A DNA stretch of 64,000 nt from Nitrospirota bacterium (GCA_016215155.1 JACRLQ010000009.1:1-64000); one strand, 5' to 3'; counted from the stretch's first letter, positions 20,810-30,667 are shown. Numbers and translations: made by a program. The notes: generated by a model not told the origin, from the sequence alone.

Positions 20810-23800
20810 ATGAATATCACCGATCTTTTCATACGCCGCCCGGTCCTGGCCCTCGTGGTAAACATTCTTATCTTAATTGCCGGACTTCAGGCCGTGCGTT
20901 CTCTGAATGTGCGCCAGTACCCCCGGAGCGAAAACGCCGCGGTCACGGTTACAACAGTATACATCGGCGCGAGTTCCGAACTGGTACGGGGCTTTATCAC
21001 TTCACCCCTTGAGCGCGCGATAGCCGCCGCCGACGGTATAGAGTATATGGAATCCCAGAGCAGCCTCGGCCTTTCCACCATAAGCGTGAGACTGAAAATC
21101 AACTACGATGCTACAAAGGCCCTGGCTGAAATCAGTTCCAAGGTCGACCAGGTCAGGCGTGATCTCCCGCCCGAGGCCGAAGTCCCGGTCATTAACATAG
21201 AGTCGGCCGACAGCCGTTTCGCCTCGGCCTATCTGAGCTTCACCTCCGAGACCCTCAAACAAAACGAGATCACCGATTACCTTGTCCGGGTAGCGCAGCC
21301 CAGGCTGTCCGCCATCTCCGGGGTGCAGAGGGCCGACATCCTCGGGGGACGTACCTTCGCCATGCGCATATGGCTGAAGCCCGACCGCATGGCGGCTCTC
21401 AACGTGAGCCCGGCCCAGGTGCGGCAGGCCCTTGCCGCGAATAATTTCCTCTCCGCGTTAGGCCGTAGCAAGGGCTCCCTGATCCAGGTGAACCTGACGG
21501 CAAATACAAACCTTAATACTGTCGATGAGTTCAAAAAGCTTGCGGTGCGCGAACAAAACGGGGCGATAGTCCGGATGGGCGATATAGCCGATATTGTGCT
21601 GGGAGCGGAAGATTATGACGCTGAGGTCCATTTCTCGGGCCAGACGGCCGTCTTCATGGGCATATGGCCTCTGCCTAACGCAAACTCCATCGACGTAATA
21701 AAAAGGGTCCATGCCGAGATGGAGGCCATTCAACGCGGTCTTCCAAGCGGCATGCAGGCCAGGGTCGCCTATGACGGGACCGATTATATAAACAATGCCA
21801 TCCATGAAGTCATAAAGACCCTTGGCGATACCCTGTTGATCGTGGTGGTAGTCATCTTTTTGTTCCTGGGGTCGTTCAGGTCAGTTTTTGTGCCGGTCAT
21901 CGCCATCCCGGTGTCCCTGATCGGAGGCGTCTTTCTGATGCAGACCTTCGGGTTCACCGTCAACCTGCTTACCCTGCTTGCTATTGTGCTCTCTGTTGGG
22001 CTTGTCGTCGATGACGCGATAGTCGTTGTCGAAAATGTCGAGCGCCACCTGCGGGAAGGGAAATCTCCGCTTGATGCCGCATATCTGGCCGGGCGGGAGC
22101 TCGTAGGCCCGATCATCGCGATGACCATAACACTGGCGGCGGTATATCTTCCGATAGGACTTCAGGGCGGCCTGACCGGATCGCTCTTCCGCGAGTTTGC
22201 CTTCACACTTGCGGGTACGGTCACTATCTCCGGGATTGTGGCCCTTACGCTCTCGCCTGTAATGTCGGCCGCGCTTCTGAAGCCGGGGCAGCAGGAACAC
22301 GGCCTCGCGGGCCGCATCTCGCGCGATTTCGACAGACTCAAAAACGCTTACGGCAGGCTGCTCGATTCGACGCTTAAGGCGCGTCCAGCAGTATACGCCG
22401 TCTGGATTATCATCACACTGCTTACTGTCCCGATGTTTAACATGTCGGCCCGTGAACTCGCCCCCACAGAGGACCAGGGGGTCATCTTCGGTATCCTGGA
22501 TGCCTCGGCCAACTCCACCCTCGACCAGAACAGCAGGTATGCCGCTGCAGTCAATCAGGTTTTCCTCGGCGTTCCGGAAACCAAATTCACATTCCAGATC
22601 ACATTCCCGAATTCGGGGTTCAGCGGAATGGTCACTAAGCCCTGGAATGAGCGCAAAAGAAACATCTTCCAGATAATGCCGGAGGTCCAGCAGAAGCTCC
22701 ACGGCATTACCGGGATACAGATCTTCCCTGTGACCCCTCCGGCCTTGCCGGGAGGCGGGCAATTCCCTGTGGAGTTTATCCTCGCATCGACCGCTGAGAC
22801 GGGCGAGATCCTTGATTTCGCAAGACAGATACAGGTTAAGGCCATGAACAGCGGCATGTTCGCCTTCCCACCGCAGATTGACGTGAAGGTAGATCAACCC
22901 CAGTCGGAATTTCTGATCAACCGCGACAAGGTTGCCGCCCTTGGAATAAATCTGGCGCAGGTGGGCACTGACCTGGGCGGCATGGTCGGCGGGAACTTCG
23001 TAAACCGTTTTGACATCTCGGGGCGCAGTTATAAGGTAATCCCCCAGATTGAAAGGAAAGGAAGGCTCAACCCTGACCAGCTCAAGGATATTTATGTCAC
23101 AGGTCCCGGCGGCAAACTCATTCCGCTGAGCTCCATCGCGACTGTGCGCGATTCTGTTGTCCCCAGGTCTCTTAACCGTTTCCAGCAGTTAAACGCGGTT
23201 AAAATCAGCGGGGTAGCTGTCCGTCCGCTCGACGAGGCCCTGCGCTTCCTTGAAAACGAAGCTGCCTCGATCCTGCCGAAGGGATATGTCCTGGATTACA
23301 CGGGCGAGTCCCGCCAGCTGCGCACGGAGGGCGACAAATTCCTGCCCGCCTTTGGACTGGCCGTAATCCTGATATTCCTGGTGCTGGCCGCCCAGTTCAA
23401 CAGTTTCCGAGATCCCTTCGTAATTCTGGCCGGCTCGGTGCCTCTGGCGATGTTCGGCGCGCTGATGTTTACCTTTCTCAAGATGCCTGACCCTAACGTT
23501 CCATTCTGGACAAAGGGCTGGACGACAACGCTCAATATCTACTCTCAGGTAGGACTTGTGACCCTCGTCGGGCTGGTCTCAAAAAACGGCATACTTATAG
23601 TGGAGTTCGCAAACAGGATGCAGCTTGAGGGCCACTCCAAGATCGACTCGGTGCGTCATGCCGCGATGACAAGGCTCAGGCCTATCCTTATGACAAGCGC
23701 TGCGACCATCGCCGGACATTTCCCCCTGACCCTGGTCACGGGGGCGGGAGCTGCCGCGAGGAACTCCATCGGCCTGGTGCTGGTCGGAGGCATGTTCGTG

Positions 23801-23908
23801 GGTACTTTTTTTACCCTGTTTGTCGTCCCTTCAATATATATGCTCATAGCAAAAGACCATAGCAGGGACCGGGCAAAAGAAGCGGCGCCGAGAACCGCTG
23901 CAACCTGA
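20810..23908 (+). CDS. RND multidrug efflux permease, AcrB/MexF-like (HAE1)
   Basis: 1032 residues, normal for a full RND pump with twelve membrane helices and two large periplasmic loops. Starts FIRRPVLALVVNILILIAG as expected. The proton relay residues are present: the Asp pair in GLVVDDAIVVVENVERHL (TM4) and the TM10 Lys in GLVSKNGILIVEFANRM. It exports hydrophobic compounds using the proton gradient; the substrate range cannot be read off. It is in an operon with the adaptor upstream. The outer-membrane partner must come from elsewhere. Confidence 0.94.
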   Translation: MNITDLFIRRPVLALVVNILILIAGLQAVRSLNVRQYPRSENAAVTVTTVYIGASSELVRGFITSPLERAIAAADGIEYMESQSSLGLSTISVRLKINYDATKALAEISSKVDQVRRDLPPEAEVPVINIESADSRFASAYLSFTSETLKQNEITDYLVRVAQPRLSAISGVQRADILGGRTFAMRIWLKPDRMAALNVSPAQVRQALAANNFLSALGRSKGSLIQVNLTANTNLNTVDEFKKLAVREQNGAIVRMGDIADIVLGAEDYDAEVHFSGQTAVFMGIWPLPNANSIDVIKRVHAEMEAIQRGLPSGMQARVAYDGTDYINNAIHEVIKTLGDTLLIVVVVIFLFLGSFRSVFVPVIAIPVSLIGGVFLMQTFGFTVNLLTLLAIVLSVGLVVDDAIVVVENVERHLREGKSPLDAAYLAGRELVGPIIAMTITLAAVYLPIGLQGGLTGSLFREFAFTLAGTVTISGIVALTLSPVMSAALLKPGQQEHGLAGRISRDFDRLKNAYGRLLDSTLKARPAVYAVWIIITLLTVPMFNMSARELAPTEDQGVIFGILDASANSTLDQNSRYAAAVNQVFLGVPETKFTFQITFPNSGFSGMVTKPWNERKRNIFQIMPEVQQKLHGITGIQIFPVTPPALPGGGQFPVEFILASTAETGEILDFARQIQVKAMNSGMFAFPPQIDVKVDQPQSEFLINRDKVAALGINLAQVGTDLGGMVGGNFVNRFDISGRSYKVIPQIERKGRLNPDQLKDIYVTGPGGKLIPLSSIATVRDSVVPRSLNRFQQLNAVKISGVAVRPLDEALRFLENEAASILPKGYVLDYTGESRQLRTEGDKFLPAFGLAVILIFLVLAAQFNSFRDPFVILAGSVPLAMFGALMFTFLKMPDPNVPFWTKGWTTTLNIYSQVGLVTLVGLVSKNGILIVEFANRMQLEGHSKIDSVRHAAMTRLRPILMTSAATIAGHFPLTLVTGAGAAARNSIGLVLVGGMFVGTFFTLFVVPSIYMLIAKDHSRDRAKEAAPRTAAT

Positions 23909-23998
23909 GTCCTTCATTTATAAAGGCCACCGTCCCCGCTTTTGACGCCTTGTTATTTCAGACCAAATTTACCCATCGGTTGGGGTATAATAACTTTC

Positions 23999-24520
23999 AT
24001 GAACAAGCCCAAGTCTAGGGAATCAAAGCCTGTAACACATAAAACCAAAAAGCCGGCAAAGCAGACCAGGCCCGGCTGGGACATCTATTTCATAAACATC
24101 GCCAAGGCCGTTTCCACCCGCGCAACGTGCCTTAGAAGGCGTTACGGCGCCGTCATCACGAAAGACAATGTCATCGTCAGCACAGGCTATAACGGCGCTC
24201 CCTCAGGCATGATCGACTGCCTCGAAGCCGGCAAATGCACCAGGAAAGAACTCCAGATACCGCACGGCGAACGGTATGAACTCTGCCACAGCGTCCATGC
24301 CGAGGCAAACGCCATCATCCGTGCCTCCGCTGATGAACTGAAGGGTTCCACAATCTACATATCAGGGTGTGACGGCGAAGGCGAAGAGTGCGTGTCCGAG
24401 CCTTGCATGATGTGCAAAAGGATGATTTTAAACGCCGGTATATTCAAGGTGGTCTACTCGGACGGAAACGGATGCTATCATATTATAAACCCTTCCGACT
24501 GGCTCCGGAACCGTGTCTGA
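23999..24520 (+). CDS. dCMP deaminase / ComE-type cytidine deaminase family
   Basis: 173 residues from the ATG at 23999. The zinc deaminase signature is complete: HAEAN (H100, E102) and PCMMC (C136, C139). The extra Cys residues in the segment DCLEAGKCTRKE and ELCHSVHAE match dCMP deaminases with a second zinc. The enzyme converts dCMP to dUMP for dTTP synthesis. A Lys-rich N-terminal tail of about 25 residues precedes the fold. TATAAT lies at 23986-23991, only 7 bp before the start codon, so the message may be leaderless or the true start may be slightly downstream. Confidence 0.9.
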   Translation: MNKPKSRESKPVTHKTKKPAKQTRPGWDIYFINIAKAVSTRATCLRRRYGAVITKDNVIVSTGYNGAPSGMIDCLEAGKCTRKELQIPHGERYELCHSVHAEANAIIRASADELKGSTIYISGCDGEGEECVSEPCMMCKRMILNAGIFKVVYSDGNGCYHIINPSDWLRNRV

Positions 24521-24603: not shown

Positions 24604-26709
24604 ATGAACATACCTTTTTTTGTAACAGGCTTCAGTTCAGTCCTCCTCCAGATAGTATGCATAAGAAAACTCCTGACCGTTTTTTCCGGCAATGAGATGG
24701 TTATAGGTATGACCCTCGCCATATGGCTGGTCGCGGTCGGCGCCGGGAGTTACCTGGGCGCTAAATTCAGGAAACCCGGAGCGTTTGCCATATCATTTCT
24801 TATAATCTCCGTTTTGGGCCAGCTGACGGTCCTCCTGCTCGATCAGGCCGAACTCCTTCTGAAAACAAGCCCCGGCGAAACGGTCTCGCTGCCGCTGACC
24901 TTCGGGTTCACGCTGGCGTCGCTTTTTCCGCTCTGTTTTACGATAGGGACGCAGTTCCCGCTGTCCGTAAGGTATGCCGGAGGAGAGATCTCCAGGGTCT
25001 ATGGGCTTGAGGCTGCCGGTTCATTCGCGGGAGGCATACTCTTTACCTTTTTCCTTTCGGGGCGCTTTGAACCGGCCTTCATCACCTTTTCCGCCGCGAT
25101 GGTCAATATGGCGGTTGCCGCCCTTGTTTCAAAACGGGTGTCCCTTTTGCTTCTGCTTGCCGTGCCTCCGTTTATTTATGCGGGGGCCTCCATATATCCG
25201 GGACTGACCTCTTCAGATACCGGCGTCTCCGGTCTCAGGCATCTGGAGACCCTCCAGTCGAGATACGGCGAGATAAAGGTGAACGAGCTGGGCGGACAGT
25301 ACAATGTCTTCGTCTCGGGGAAGTTCGTATTCTCATATCCCGACAGACAGACCGAGGAGCCTGCCGCACACCTTCCGTTGTCGCTTCATGAACGCCCGTT
25401 ACGTGTGCTGGTCGTGGGAGGGTCGCTTTCGATGCTCCGGGAATATCTCAAGTACCCCCTGGTTTCGATAGACTACCTTGAAATTGATCCGATGCTCATA
25501 AAAGTTTCAGAGGCCCTTGTCAGGAAATCCGAACCCGGCCTGCTCAACGGCGGGAGGGTACATATTCATGCCGAAGACGCGCGAGGATTTATAAAATCCC
25601 GGGGAACTCCGGGATATGATCTCATTGTGCTCAACCTGCCCGAACCCTCGACCGCCTGGATCAACAGGTACTATACAACTGAATTTTTCAGGGAGGCCGC
25701 AAATATCCTTAAAGACGAAGGGATAATTTCCCTGTCGCTCCCCTCATCCTTTGGTTACATAGGCAGGAAAATGCAGGCGGCCAACGGGGCCATCTACAAC
25801 TCACTGAGGTCGGTATTCGGTCACGTGGAGGTGTCATCCGAAGAATACGGCTTCATGTTTGCATCCGACAGACCTATCGATACCAGCCCCGACCTACTTG
25901 AAAAAAGATTTTCAGGGAGGGGAATAAAGACTGATTATTTTCATCCCTCGCTTTTTCAGGACGCCTTCTCATCTCATAAGACGGCGATGGTAAAAGACAG
26001 GCTCTCGGCATCCGGACCGCTAAACAGCGACCTGAGGCCGATAGCCTATCTTCATAACCTGAGGTTATGGTCCGGCCTGCACGGGGGGAGACTCATGGAC
26101 CTGCTGCTTTCCGTGTCGGCCTGGACGGCGGCCGTGGTTTCGGCCCTTGCTTTACTGGCGATAATTATTTTATTCAGGCGAAATAAGGCGCCCGTATATT
26201 ATTCTCTGTTTTCTACAGGCTATGTAACGATGTCGTTTTCCGTGATTGTGATTATGGGGTATCAGGCCCGGTTCGGATATGCCTATGAAATGATCGGTCT
26301 GCTTACAGCGGTATTTATGGCGGGCCTCGCCATAGGGGCATATTCAGGCCGCGACAGTTCCTCCCCGCTGAGGCGCCTTAGGGAATTCGAACTCTTCTTT
26401 GTCCTGTTGTCAGGGGCGGCCCTCATGTCCGTCAGGAGCGAACTGCTGTATTTTATGCTTAATTTTTGCTGCGGCCTTTTGGGAGGGCTTGTATTCAGCA
26501 CAGTCCCGAATTGTTTCGGCCGGGACGCAGTGGAGGGCACGGCAGGCAGACTTTATGCTCTGGAGATGTCCGGTTCTTTTGCGGGGGCCTTATTGACCGG
26601 AATATTTACAGTCCCCGTCGCGGGCGTCAGAAATTCTCTTATACTGCTGATGGTCGTTAAATCAGTCTCTTTCATGCTGCTGCGCGGCATCGAAACCGAG
26701 GTCACATGA
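24604..26709 (+). CDS. Membrane protein with central spermidine-synthase-like domain
   Basis: About 701 residues from the ATG at 24604 (an in-frame ATG at 24571 would add 11). Layout: about six membrane helices (1-210), a soluble spermidine-synthase-like methyltransferase fold (about 230-460), then about six more helices. The usual SAM-binding GGGDG is VVGGSLSM here, so cofactor binding is doubtful; LEIDPMLI and DARGFIKS match later motifs. It is therefore a divergent member of the fused-membrane SpeE-like group and may not make polyamines. It overlaps the next gene by 4 bp (ATGA), tying it to the NosR-like and AmmeMemoRadiSam genes. Confidence 0.8.
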   Translation: MNIPFFVTGFSSVLLQIVCIRKLLTVFSGNEMVIGMTLAIWLVAVGAGSYLGAKFRKPGAFAISFLIISVLGQLTVLLLDQAELLLKTSPGETVSLPLTFGFTLASLFPLCFTIGTQFPLSVRYAGGEISRVYGLEAAGSFAGGILFTFFLSGRFEPAFITFSAAMVNMAVAALVSKRVSLLLLLAVPPFIYAGASIYPGLTSSDTGVSGLRHLETLQSRYGEIKVNELGGQYNVFVSGKFVFSYPDRQTEEPAAHLPLSLHERPLRVLVVGGSLSMLREYLKYPLVSIDYLEIDPMLIKVSEALVRKSEPGLLNGGRVHIHAEDARGFIKSRGTPGYDLIVLNLPEPSTAWINRYYTTEFFREAANILKDEGIISLSLPSSFGYIGRKMQAANGAIYNSLRSVFGHVEVSSEEYGFMFASDRPIDTSPDLLEKRFSGRGIKTDYFHPSLFQDAFSSHKTAMVKDRLSASGPLNSDLRPIAYLHNLRLWSGLHGGRLMDLLLSVSAWTAAVVSALALLAIIILFRRNKAPVYYSLFSTGYVTMSFSVIVIMGYQARFGYAYEMIGLLTAVFMAGLAIGAYSGRDSSSPLRRLREFELFFVLLSGAALMSVRSELLYFMLNFCCGLLGGLVFSTVPNCFGRDAVEGTAGRLYALEMSGSFAGALLTGIFTVPVAGVRNSLILLMVVKSVSFMLLRGIETEVT

Positions 26710-27950
26710 CCAGGGATATCAGGAATATCCGGACCGCAATCCTGAGCGTCGCACTTTCCGCCGTCGCCGTCGGACTGCTTTTTAATAACCAGACCCCGGT
26801 GATCGACGAGCAGGCCATCCTCAGGGAACTTGCCCCGGGCGCTTCATTTACACAAAAGGGCGGGACACCTCCCCATTACCTGTCAGAGGGTCTTGTGGCC
26901 TTCAATACGCATGACATCTCTCCTTCCGTAAGGGGATATGCCGGACCGATAAAGACGCTTGTCGTGATGGACAGGCAGGGGCGGATAACCGGGCTCAGGA
27001 TAATCGATCACAGGGAGACAAAAAACTATGTCCACTATATGGAGACGCCTGAATACCTGTCCCGCTTCATAGGCAGAAGCGTAAATGACCCCCTTGAGAT
27101 CGGCTCCGACATAGACGGCATCAGCCGGGCCACGATAAGCGTTCAGGCTCTGGCGCGGTCTGTCAGAGAATCCTCCGTAAAGGCCGCCTCGGACCTGTTG
27201 GGCGTCAGGGTCCTCAGGGCTGAAGCCGGGCGGGCGTCTGAACACGCGTGGATCATTTATACAGCGTACTTCTCGGCGGCGTTTTTTTGTTATTTTATGA
27301 CGAGGCACAACCCCCGCTTTCTTTATACCAGGGACGTCAGCCTTGTCCTTGGACTTATCATCCCGGGGATTTATCTTTCAACCCCGTTTTCGATGCTCCA
27401 GTTATTTAACATGGTCCTTTTCGGGCCGTCCAATTCTTATCTATGGCTGGCCCTTGTCATAAGCACCGCGATTTCGGTATTGCTCGCAGGAAGGTTTTAT
27501 TGCGGCTGGATCTGCCCTTTCGGGGCCCTCTCGGAACTCCTCGGCCGGCTGCCTGTCAGAAAATGGAACATTTCTTCCGGCAGTGACGGGGACTGGAGAC
27601 GGTTAAAATATCCGGCGTTGGGAATTTCCATCGCCGCGGCGCTCGCCGGAAGACGTCCGGAATCCGGAAATTACGAGACTTACGTCACCCTTTTTTCATT
27701 GAGCGGAAGTTACCTGTCGTGGGGTCTTGTAGGACTGACCCTTATTGCCAATGTGAGGGTAAGAAGGTTCTGGTGCAGGTATCTCTGCCCCGTCGCGGCG
27801 CTGACCGGCCTGCTTTCGAGGTCCGACAACCGCTACGTAAGCAACAGCCAATGCCCTATGGACAACAGACCGGGGCCCCACATATCCGAATGCATAAGGT
27901 GCAACAGGTGTTTTGTGCGAACGGAAAGGACTGGAGAGCAAAATGGGTGA
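26706..27950 (+). CDS. NosR/NapH-like membrane protein with FMN-binding and Fe-S motifs
   Basis: 414 residues. An N-terminal anchor is followed by an FMN-binding domain outside the cytoplasm with the flavinylation motif ISRATIS (T143 the likely acceptor). After about five membrane helices come polyferredoxin-type Cys motifs: FYCGWICPFG (C266, C270), WCRYLCPVA (C357, C361) and a final CIRCNRC (396-402). In NosR/NapH relatives this last motif is usually followed by a fourth Cys and a second cluster; here the chain ends a few residues later. It should pass electrons across or along the membrane. It overlaps the upstream SpeE-like gene and sits before AmrS. Confidence 0.82.
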   Translation: MTRDIRNIRTAILSVALSAVAVGLLFNNQTPVIDEQAILRELAPGASFTQKGGTPPHYLSEGLVAFNTHDISPSVRGYAGPIKTLVVMDRQGRITGLRIIDHRETKNYVHYMETPEYLSRFIGRSVNDPLEIGSDIDGISRATISVQALARSVRESSVKAASDLLGVRVLRAEAGRASEHAWIIYTAYFSAAFFCYFMTRHNPRFLYTRDVSLVLGLIIPGIYLSTPFSMLQLFNMVLFGPSNSYLWLALVISTAISVLLAGRFYCGWICPFGALSELLGRLPVRKWNISSGSDGDWRRLKYPALGISIAAALAGRRPESGNYETYVTLFSLSGSYLSWGLVGLTLIANVRVRRFWCRYLCPVAALTGLLSRSDNRYVSNSQCPMDNRPGPHISECIRCNRCFVRTERTGEQNG

Positions 27951-28143
27951 CGAAAAAAAATTCAGGGCGCTTCTGGTGTCGGCGGCGCTGCTGATCGCCT
28001 GCATATTTTCCTACAATATTTTTGGGGAATACTTGCGTGCTGATATTTTTGAATATATAAAAAGAAGGGCCTACTATGAAAACGTCCTGAAAAATAAGGG
28101 GCTTGATCTCAGAGAGGGCATGCATTGGAGAAAAAAACAGTGA
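27943..28143 (+). CDS. Small single-pass membrane protein of unknown function
   Basis: 66 residues from the ATG at 27943, overlapping the end of the NosR-like gene by 8 bp; an earlier start at 27913 is also open. One hydrophobic helix (ALLVSAALLIACIFSYNIF) is followed by a charged tail with YIKRRAYYENVLKNKGL. No homologue is recognised. Its position between the NosR-like gene and AmrS in a tightly packed operon suggests a small subunit of that complex. Confidence 0.6.
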   Translation: MGDEKKFRALLVSAALLIACIFSYNIFGEYLRADIFEYIKRRAYYENVLKNKGLDLREGMHWRKKQ

Positions 28144-29134
28144 AGCGTTAAAATACAGCATGGGTGACAAGGTCAGGTGTGAACTCTGCCCTACCGAATG
28201 TGAGCTCGATAATTATCAGATCGGAGGCTGCAGAACCAGGATCAACAAAAGCGGGGTGCTCTATAGCCTTGTCTATGGAAAACCCTGCTCGGTCGCCATT
28301 GACCCCATCGAAAAAAAACCTTTCTATCATTTCCTTCCGGCCACGGCCGCGTTTTCCATCGCCACCGCGGGATGCGTGCTGGACTGCAAATTCTGCCAGA
28401 ACTATCAGATCTCACAGGCAAGGCCGGAAGAGGTGGACCACAAAGACCTGCCCCCGGCGGACGTTGTGAGGCAGGCGCTTTATTACGGCTGCCGTTCCAT
28501 AACCTATACCTATACGGAACCGACGGTCTTTTATGAATATATGTTCGACACGGCGAAACTCGCAAGGGACTTCAAACTGAAAAACACGATGCATACCTGC
28601 GGGTATATAAACAGCAGACCGCTCCGGGAACTGGCCCCTTTTATGGATGCCGCCGATGTCGACCTGAAGGCATTTACAGAGGATTTCTACAGCCGTATCT
28701 GCGGCGGAAGGCTCCGTCCGGTGCTCGACACCCTTGTCGAACTAAAAAAAGCGGGGGTCTGGATAGAGATCACAAACCTTGTGATACCCACCCTTAACGA
28801 CGACATTAAAAAGATCTCGGAGATGACCGCCTGGATTGTGAATAACCTCGGTCGTGACGTGCCCCTTCATTTTTCGAGGTTCTTCCCTTATTACAAGCTC
28901 AAAAACCTGCCCCCGACGCCTCCCGGCACGCTCTCGGATGCCAGGAAGGCCGCACTGGACTCGGGACTCCGGTATGTGTACATCGGGAACCTGGCGGGGG
29001 GCGGACAGAACACGTCCTGCCATAAATGCGGAAGGCTCCTGGTCGAACGTTCAGGGTTCAGGGTCAATCAAAATAATATTATTAACGGCAGATGCGGGTC
29101 CTGCGGGACAGGCATCCCGGGAGTATGGGGGTAA
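28103..29134 (+). CDS. amrS: AmmeMemoRadiSam system radical SAM enzyme (AmrS)
   Basis: About 343 residues. The radical SAM motif is CVLDCKFC (C91, C95, C98), in the PflE-activase-like form CxxxCxxC. It is preceded by the family's own N-terminal Cys set (VRCELCPTECELDNYQIGGC, 25-43 region). A C-terminal zinc-ribbon-like tail (CHKCG ... CGSCG) is present. Family knowledge: AmrS is always found with AmrA (AMMECR1) and AmrB (Memo), and the reaction of the trio is not established. The start is uncertain: TTG at 28103 keeps the EALKYS stretch usual for the family, while ATG at 28160 would drop it. It overlaps the small membrane gene by about 40 bp. Confidence 0.9.
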   Translation: MISERACIGEKNSEALKYSMGDKVRCELCPTECELDNYQIGGCRTRINKSGVLYSLVYGKPCSVAIDPIEKKPFYHFLPATAAFSIATAGCVLDCKFCQNYQISQARPEEVDHKDLPPADVVRQALYYGCRSITYTYTEPTVFYEYMFDTAKLARDFKLKNTMHTCGYINSRPLRELAPFMDAADVDLKAFTEDFYSRICGGRLRPVLDTLVELKKAGVWIEITNLVIPTLNDDIKKISEMTAWIVNNLGRDVPLHFSRFFPYYKLKNLPPTPPGTLSDARKAALDSGLRYVYIGNLAGGGQNTSCHKCGRLLVERSGFRVNQNNIINGRCGSCGTGIPGVWG

Positions 29135-29135
29135 A

Positions 29136-29255
29136 ATGACGAGGAGATCATTTCTTGTTTTTTTCATTCTGGGGGGCCTTTCCGGTCTCCTTCGGAAAAA
29201 GACACGGACAACGGACAGTACTCATGTGGCCAGGTTCTGGCAAAAGGCATCATGA
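29136..29255 (+). CDS. 39-residue Tat-like or membrane peptide in the AmmeMemoRadiSam operon
   Basis: An ORF of 39 codons, start ATG 29136 after GGGGG, stop overlapping the next start as ATGA. The peptide begins MTRRSFLVFFILGGLSGLL, a twin-arginine-like or membrane-anchor sequence, and then has a short basic tail. The exact spacing (1 bp after amrS, 4-bp overlap with the next gene) argues that it is translated. It may be the remnant of a longer Tat substrate or a true small subunit. Confidence 0.55.
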   Translation: MTRRSFLVFFILGGLSGLLRKKTRTTDSTHVARFWQKAS

Positions 29256-30667
29256 GATTGCGCACCTTTATCTCAGCCTTGTACCTGCTTTCGTTTTTGC
29301 TGACGGGGTGTTCAGCGTCTGTAAAGGAGCCAAATGTTGCCGGAGCATTTTACCCCGCCGACGGGAAAGAGCTTGCCGGAATGGTGGACGGCTTTCTTAA
29401 GGGTGTTGACGGCAACAAGGTCGACGGCAGGCTTATCGCGCTCATCGCCCCGCATGCCGGGTATCAGTTTTCGGGGCAGGTCGCCGCTTTTTCATACGGC
29501 CGGCTTAAAGGCAGGGACATCGACACGGTCATTATTATAGGCTCCAGCCATTACGCCTCTTATACCGGGGCGTCAGTCTATACGACCGGCGGCATGATGA
29601 CACCGCTCGGCACGGTAAAGATAAATGAGAAGGTAGCGCGGGGCCTGCTGAGTGAAAAGGACCAGGTCACTTTCTTTCCCGCGGCCTTCGACAAAGAGCA
29701 CTCAATCGAAGTGCAGCTGCCGTTTCTGCAGAGGGTCCTGAAAAATTTCAGCGTAGTGCCGATACTCATTGGAGCCCCTTCCCGTGAGTCGTTCAATCAT
29801 CTGTCCAAAAAGCTCGCAGAGGTGATGAAGGCAAGCGACAGGGTCCTGCTCGTCGTCAGCACGGACCTTTCGCACTATCACGATTATCAGACCGCCGCCG
29901 CCATGGACCGCAAGGTCACGGATGCGGTACAGAGGATGTCCTCAGGCGACCTCGAACAGAAGCTGATGAGCGGAGAGGCAGAGGCCTGCGGAGGGTATGC
30001 CCTGCTTTATGCCATGGCCGCCGCCAGAGACCTCGGGGCCACGGACGGGCGGCTTTTTAAATACGCCAATTCGGGTGACGTAACCGGTGACGTCAAAAGG
30101 GTCGTCGGCTATGCCGCAATGGGGCTTTATAAAAGCGCCCTCGACATGGAGGAGAGGGCCGAACTTCTTTCCCTTGCCATAAAGTCGATCTCCGAATATG
30201 TCAAAACGGGCAAAGCGCCCTCCCATGAGACGTCAAACCCGAGACTCCTTGCAAACGGCGCCACGTTCGTTACCATTAAAAGAAAGGGCATGCTGCGGGG
30301 ATGTATCGGCAATATCAGCCCTGTAATGCCCCTCTTCAAGTCCGTTATCGCGAACTCGGTCTCCGCATCGTCTTTTGACCCCCGGTTCCCTAAAATGGCG
30401 CCCGAAGAACTTACGGACATGGAGGTGGAAGTAACGGTGCTTTCGCCCCTGGAACCCCTCCGGGACAGGAAGGACATCAAAATAGGGACCCATGGCCTCT
30501 TTATAGTGAAGGACAATAAAAGCGGCCTGCTGCTTCCACAGGTCGCCGAGGAGTTCGGGTGGGACGTCGATACCTTCCTCAGGGAGGTATCTCTTAAGGC
30601 CGGGCTTCCTGAGGCCGCGTGGAAAGACTCCCAGCTTTTTTCTTTCACCGCGGATATAATCCGATAA
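29252..30667 (+). CDS. amrB-amrA: AmrB (Memo) - AmrA (AMMECR1) fusion lipoprotein
   Basis: 471 residues. A lipoprotein signal (LLSFLLTGC, C20) starts the protein, so it should be anchored to a membrane outside the cytoplasm. Residues about 25-295 are Memo/AmrB: PHAGYQFSG (67-75), GSSHY (97-101), HSIEVQLPF (150-158) and DLSHYHD (205-211) supply the metal-site histidines of the dioxygenase-like fold. Residues about 300-470 are AMMECR1 with the hallmark LRGCIG (348-353). The natural pairing in one chain matches the known system, but export of the pair as a lipoprotein is notable because AmrS is cytoplasmic. Last gene of its operon. Confidence 0.93.
   Translation: MRLRTFISALYLLSFLLTGCSASVKEPNVAGAFYPADGKELAGMVDGFLKGVDGNKVDGRLIALIAPHAGYQFSGQVAAFSYGRLKGRDIDTVIIIGSSHYASYTGASVYTTGGMMTPLGTVKINEKVARGLLSEKDQVTFFPAAFDKEHSIEVQLPFLQRVLKNFSVVPILIGAPSRESFNHLSKKLAEVMKASDRVLLVVSTDLSHYHDYQTAAAMDRKVTDAVQRMSSGDLEQKLMSGEAEACGGYALLYAMAAARDLGATDGRLFKYANSGDVTGDVKRVVGYAAMGLYKSALDMEERAELLSLAIKSISEYVKTGKAPSHETSNPRLLANGATFVTIKRKGMLRGCIGNISPVMPLFKSVIANSVSASSFDPRFPKMAPEELTDMEVEVTVLSPLEPLRDRKDIKIGTHGLFIVKDNKSGLLLPQVAEEFGWDVDTFLREVSLKAGLPEAAWKDSQLFSFTADIIR

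Follow-up and report, generated by a model that had tools for sequence, protein, structure and literature searches.

A six-gene operon, all on the + strand, occupies positions 24604-30667 of a 64,000-nucleotide stretch of DNA (the window) from Nitrospirota bacterium (GCA_016215155.1, JACRLQ010000009.1). It encodes an extended form of the AmmeMemoRadiSam system, which comprises the radical S-adenosylmethionine (SAM) enzyme AmrS, the Memo-type protein AmrB and the AMMECR1-type protein AmrA. Memo and AMMECR1 are also human proteins, and we know of no function for the trio. In this operon AmrS is a split core and AmrB and AmrA are fused. Accompanying them are a transporter-like membrane protein with a spermidine-synthase-like domain (MFS-SpeE, from the major facilitator superfamily, MFS), a NosR-like electron-transfer protein and two tiny proteins, TM66 and Tat39. 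An initial annotation, made from the sequence alone, had proposed an extended AmmeMemoRadiSam operon, and this is borne out: the six open reading frames (ORFs) are present, and AmrS (361.8 bits against TIGR04337, cut-off 220), AmrB (263.9 bits against TIGR04336, cut-off 26) and AmrA (161 bits against TIGR04335, cut-off 99) all exceed the curated cut-offs.

The genes are closely packed. Of the stop/start overlaps annotated, those at 26706, 27943 and 29252 hold up, whereas a fourth, at 28103, is unsupported. It depended on a TTG start for AmrS that is ruled out by the orthologues, which begin at MGKxVxC, so that the ATG at 28163 is the likely start. A canonical AmrS, beginning MKEAMFFERLEKKEVRC, is encoded elsewhere in the source genome (contig C44:16072-17070; locus L159), as is a second, single-domain AmrB (contig C37); the operon is thus a second, specialised set. 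Like AmmeMemoRadiSam systems at large, it has intact Memo ligands and the LRGCIG motif. It differs in that AmrS is split and associated with a leader, AmrB-AmrA is a predicted lipoprotein and the membrane partners are dedicated, whereas the other set in the genome is leaderless. The genomes compared here are mostly metagenome-assembled, and localisation was judged by motif, hydropathy and profile checks.

A split AmrS and its detached strand

The cassette AmrS (28163..29134) retains the radical SAM motif CxxxCxxC (approximately 28373-28396), which is invariant in 61 AmrS, and lacks the N-terminal EAMFYxKL strand. All 15 split AmrS from Nitrospirota begin at their first cysteine motif, and in all 15 the EAMFY-type strand is absent in cis, whereas it is present in the canonical AmrS examined (N-terminus e.g. 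MKEAMFYEKLEDGKVRC). In the AlphaFold2 (AF2) model of the canonical AmrS of the source genome, the first ten residues have a predicted local distance difference test score (pLDDT) of 98 and form two short strands, and the N-terminal segment is therefore likely to be an integral part of the fold. The AmrS fold is nearest that of pyruvate formate-lyase activase (Z 23), with about 45 residues at each end, and extra cysteines, outside the match. From this likeness we would guess at hydrogen abstraction from a peptide or small molecule.

The sequence missing from the cassette AmrS finds its match at the ends of the two tiny proteins, which are the most telling parts of the operon and had been overlooked. 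Tat39 (29136..29255), separated from AmrS by 1 nt, is a 39-residue micropeptide with a twin-arginine translocation (Tat)-type signal, MTRRSFL, and the C-terminal motif VARFWQKAS (29226..29252). TM66 (27943..28143) is a 66-residue protein with a single transmembrane (TM) helix that ends in the AmrS-type motif REGMHWRKKQ (28111..28140). Each tail is a counterpart of the absent strand. The 15 Tat39 orthologues (38-50 residues) follow the pattern M-x-RR-x-FL, hydrophobic stretch, basic stretch, EAMFW[KR]R(L), stop. RR, found in 15 of 15, and the A, F and W are invariant, and the RR-x-F/L followed by a hydrophobic stretch marks the peptide as a candidate Tat signal. TM66 orthologues share the one TM helix and LSLHKALYWRR-type tails. 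At two further loci (L300, L301) a lone motif-less AmrS follows a membrane-anchor or lipoprotein-like ORF ending HEALFYEKNVNE or HPARFWTVDAEKEDAKP, an arrangement that is TM66-like and has no AmrB-AmrA.

Complementation of the AmrS core by a strand supplied in trans is the reading towards which we incline, with some confidence. Tat39 and TM66, which are short, neighbour a radical SAM enzyme and have conserved aromatic and basic residues in their C-terminal cores, might instead be precursors of ribosomally synthesized and post-translationally modified peptides; AmrS and AmrB-AmrA would modify the EAMFW-type core before its export or display. Related radical SAM domains are found in peptide-processing systems (PMC7159879), and nine Myxococcota peptides, considered below, have a different conserved tail that ends in Gly. 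We regard such a precursor role as improbable: in canonical AmrS the EAMFW-type sequence forms an ordered strand at the N-terminus, it is precisely this piece that the split enzyme lacks, and relatives of AmrS with a Tat leader have no free peptide, because the motif is there in cis.

The set travels together. Across 198 Nitrospirota genomes, with Tat39 counted at E<1e-10, Tat39 was found in 14, every one with split AmrS, and split AmrS in those 14 and in G101, where a contig edge cuts it. MFS-SpeE orthologues track split AmrS, with a divergent copy in G132. The NosR-like protein and TM66 occupy identical sets of 10 genomes and lie on separate contigs in four of them (G032, G107, G132, G178). 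Hypergeometric probabilities, which ignore kinship, are 5e-17 for NosR-like/TM66 and 1e-20 for split AmrS/Tat39, and the co-conservation of the gene set is far beyond chance. By our reading, eight families (f1, f2, f4, f5, f8, f9, f13, f18) contain members with the set beside members without it.

Such patchiness, together with the lack of most of the cassette in the own-genus relatives G124 and G186, might suggest that the tiny ORFs are functionless leader remnants of a fission of the AmrS gene, with neighbours that co-travel by lateral transfer only. Their differences, however, fall mostly at third codon positions (0.43/0.33/0.61 for positions 1/2/3), and frame and motif are kept across many families; for the tiny ORFs, the conserved frame, RR and motif rule decay out. 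TM66 and the NosR-like gene also stay together when unlinked, and elsewhere SpeE-NosR and NosR-TM66 fusions occur. Taken whole, an explanation by decay and chance is highly improbable.

Other neighbouring genes are not common to the cassettes, and RND pump, dCMP (deoxycytidine monophosphate) deaminase, ribonucleotide reductase, DisA/GlmM and ABC genes were rejected as parts of the set. Upstream of the operon lie genes for an RND-type efflux pump (20810-23908) and a dCMP-deaminase-like protein (23942-24520). A gene like the latter is likewise found at L149, downstream of split AmrS. At five loci (L103, L105, L106, L110, L113) a gene of 742-759 codons with a class II ribonucleotide reductase-like start, recognised by eye only, lies downstream of AmrB-AmrA.

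Leaders on AmrS and AmrB-AmrA

The AmrB-AmrA fusion (29252..30667) has Memo domain ligands H68, H100 and C246 and the AMMECR1 motif LRGCIG; the H/H/C ligands and LRGCIG are invariant in 34 AmrB-AmrA. The metal ligands of human Memo are H49, H81 and C244 (PMC11081632). The leader (29252..29311) ends in a lipobox, LTGC, with the cysteine at C20. A hydrophobic leader is found in 17 of 17 Nitrospirota orthologues and a cysteine at the lipobox position in 15 of the 17. The lipoprotein signal predicted in the initial annotation is thus present and its lipobox conserved, which supports a putative extracytoplasmic location for this half of the system. The companion proposal, that AmrS is inside, is probably wrong: the closest relatives of AmrS have Tat leaders in cis, and here leader and motif are on a separate 39-residue gene product.

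In Marinimicrobiota, a consensus Tat leader and the motif are present in cis in 20 of 20 AmrS examined, which were chosen for their longer reading frames and so do not represent the AmrS of this phylum as a whole. Nineteen of these adjoin AmrB-AmrA within the stretch examined, and on inspection it bears a leader in all 19. At L004, a Marinimicrobia record, the leader on AmrS is of the Sec type, and no TatC was found in that 1.2-Mb genome. Myxococcota, to which the Myxococcales record L039 belongs, have both AmrS with Tat leader and motif in cis (L253-L256) and motif-less AmrS. At all 10 loci where motif-less AmrS adjoins AmrB-AmrA, a Tat-type micropeptide ORF lies in the gap between them; one of the ten peptides ends KAMFFRKGA. 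Two Tat-AmrS (L287:5169-6686 and L288:3079-4305) have a CxxCH c-type haem motif between an ARxW motif and the core, which is absent from 133 other AmrS checked.

The leaders of the two proteins agree. By script, 37 of 38 AmrS that have a leader, whether in cis or in trans, adjoin a leader-bearing AmrB-AmrA, and 53 of 54 leaderless AmrS have a leaderless AmrB or AmrB-AmrA. These counts cover AmrS/AmrB(A) neighbours, some from overlapping loci of the same genome and hence not all distinct, and the two exceptions (L239, L127) proved on inspection to be misparsed N-termini. This concordance speaks against an arrangement with AmrS inside and AmrB-AmrA outside. In the AmrS tree, all 61 leader-bearing and split enzymes form one clade with no canonical members (Shimodaira-Hasegawa-like approximate likelihood ratio test, SH-aLRT, 95), within which the split Nitrospirota AmrS are one subclade (SH-aLRT 98). 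The trees were built quickly and have SH-aLRT values as their sole support. L287 and L288 were labelled split in this run despite their Tat leader in cis; a second tree run was similar.

Membrane partners

MFS-SpeE (24604..26709) scores 61.8 bits against Spermine_synth (cut-off 22.9). Its AF2 model (pLDDT 84.7) aligns over more than 330 residues, a whole-transporter match, to SotB (Z 27.7), NorA (26.3) and FLVCR1 (25.9), and the middle of the model matches spermidine synthases (Z 28.5). The protein is thus predicted to be a 12-TM transporter of the MFS fold whose central loop holds a non-catalytic SpeE domain. The central loop of MFS proteins is cytosolic. In place of the catalytic D-S/T-x-D-P there is an NLPEP-type sequence, while the nucleoside-side motifs E-x-D and D-x-R are largely kept. 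A Spermine_synth domain within an MFS-like membrane protein recalls SpeE and the fused MFS/spermidine synthases (NF037959), from which MFS-SpeE differs by the NLPEP sequence and by falling below all equivalog and subfamily cut-offs (for SpeE equivalogs, 107.6 against 472 bits and others). The annotation of a membrane protein with a degenerate SpeE core missed the predicted transporter fold around that core. In Marinimicrobiota, at L223, L224 and L241, a formylglycine-generating-enzyme (SUMF1-type) protein adjoins MFS-SpeE, with a Pfam match in L223 and L224.

The NosR-like protein (26706..27950) combines FMN_bind (42.9 bits) and Fer4_5 (74.9 bits; cut-off 22 each) with TM helices, two C-x3-CP motifs and CIRCNRC. 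In the window its flavinylation-type motif is SRATIS; this type of motif is found in 10 of 10 family members, and the Fe-S motifs are kept as well. ApbE was present in 20 of 20 genomes checked. In NosR the flavin mononucleotide (FMN) domains face the periplasm and the Fe-S clusters the cytoplasm. The protein resembles NosR/NapH/RnfG-type proteins in having FMN_bind with a flavinylation-type motif and Fer4_5. It is shorter than NosR, far below the NosR equivalog cut-off (NF046105; 71.1 against 1000 bits), and either linked with AmrS and TM66 or part of one chain with MFS-SpeE; the operon has no N2O reductase genes. Topologies of MFS-SpeE and the NosR-like protein from plain hydropathy were inconsistent between orthologues and were not used. 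The main text of an eLife survey of flavinylation makes no mention of AMMECR1, Memo or radical SAM.

The motifs support the redox membrane partner that had been postulated, and its functional linkage to the SpeE-like protein gains from other genomes, in which the two genes are linked or fused. In six Myxococcota loci MFS-SpeE and the NosR-like protein form a single chain of about 1150-1230 residues, and in two (L294, L298) the NosR part carries a fused TM66-like tail. In Marinimicrobiota the operons at L223 and L235 encode a DUF362 protein bearing a Tat-type leader, along with a Fer4_5-containing membrane polyferredoxin (Pfam); similar polyferredoxins, judged by size and cysteine count, are found at 13 of 21 loci there, and MFS-SpeE at 8 of 21.

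A proposed exported AmmeMemoRadiSam system

The strand loss, the motif encoded in trans, the concordance of leaders and the gene fusions are facts of the sequences; we infer binding in trans, export, electron transfer and SAM-type transport. The operon may be an exported form of AmmeMemoRadiSam in which AmrS and AmrB-AmrA both act outside the cytoplasm, a proposal for which the chances appear even. The AmrS core would fold with its clusters in the cytoplasm, bind the C-terminal strand of Tat39 in trans and be carried out by Tat as a hitchhiker on the micropeptide. Outside it would work with the lipid-anchored AmrB-AmrA, with its Memo-type iron site and AMMECR1 domain. The putatively flavinylated NosR-like protein would relay electrons outwards from Fe-S clusters in the cytosol, so that the AmrS cluster is reduced at the outer face, TM66 would tether AmrS to the NosR-like protein, and MFS-SpeE might move SAM, a SAM-derived compound or a product across the membrane. 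Export of AmrS is the most probable of these steps, and a supply of electrons by the NosR-like protein is marginally favoured. Transport of a SAM-type compound by MFS-SpeE is tentative. So, too, is the sum of the parts, radical SAM chemistry outside the cytoplasm by a Tat-exported enzyme, in cis or in trans, with reduction by flavin and Fe-S centres and SAM fed through MFS-SpeE; we would put it forward with reserve.

There is precedent for hitchhiking (PMC10924467): in Ni-Fe hydrogenases and formate dehydrogenases, as is proposed here, the signal of one protein could take a folded partner, which bears a cofactor and lacks a signal of its own, out of the cytoplasm. The present case differs in that the partner with the signal is only 38-50 residues long and bears a strand detached from its presumed client. 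TatC was found in 19 of 20 genomes checked.

Several observations weigh against this proposal. TatC was not found in G166, among those 20 genomes. The Tat signal models PF10518 and TIGR01409 each match only 4 of the 15 Tat39, and the window copy is unmatched. Nine of the ten Myxococcota micropeptides (in the AmrS to AmrB-AmrA gap of L289, L291, L292, L293, L296, L297, L298, L299 and L302) have a conserved tail that is typically DLYRxHxLAG, with a C-terminal Gly, and since this tail differs they are not explained by complementation. The NosR-like protein and TM66 are absent from five genomes of family f10. Three genomes (G162, G124 and G186; loci L101, L108 and L111) have a lipoprotein AmrB-AmrA without split AmrS, and also without Tat39, MFS-SpeE and the NosR-like protein. 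We know of no extracytoplasmic SAM, and a literature search on periplasmic or exported radical SAM enzymes found none. Searches on SAM transporters or exporters in periplasmic contexts returned nothing relevant, and AmmeMemoRadiSam was mentioned only in passing in the literature searched.

Finally, of the two flanks of the TM66 helix, the one with the tail is the more basic, which by the positive-inside rule would place the motif in the cytoplasm. This favours the main rival, recruitment to the inner face of the membrane, in which Tat39 and TM66 are only membrane anchors: they would complete AmrS and keep it at the inner face by the NosR-type Fe-S clusters, and its product would be made inside and passed out, perhaps via MFS-SpeE, to AmrB-AmrA. 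SAM and low-potential electron donors are cytoplasmic, and product export is compatible with the predicted transporter fold of MFS-SpeE. Recruitment to the inner face nevertheless seems unlikely, given the invariant RR-x-F/L of Tat39, the cis Tat leaders of close AmrS relatives with their AxA-type sites, the Sec-type leader at L004, the CxxCH motif of two Tat-AmrS and the agreement of leaders with AmrB-AmrA.

An exported AmmeMemoRadiSam system that has its own electron and cofactor partners would offer direct, testable hints to the chemistry of the trio. Together with its two micropeptides, split AmrS would give a compact and clear example of export linked to strand complementation. If AmrS does work outside the cytoplasm, the view of radical SAM enzymes as cytoplasmic must change, and a bacterial exporter of the SAM type should exist.

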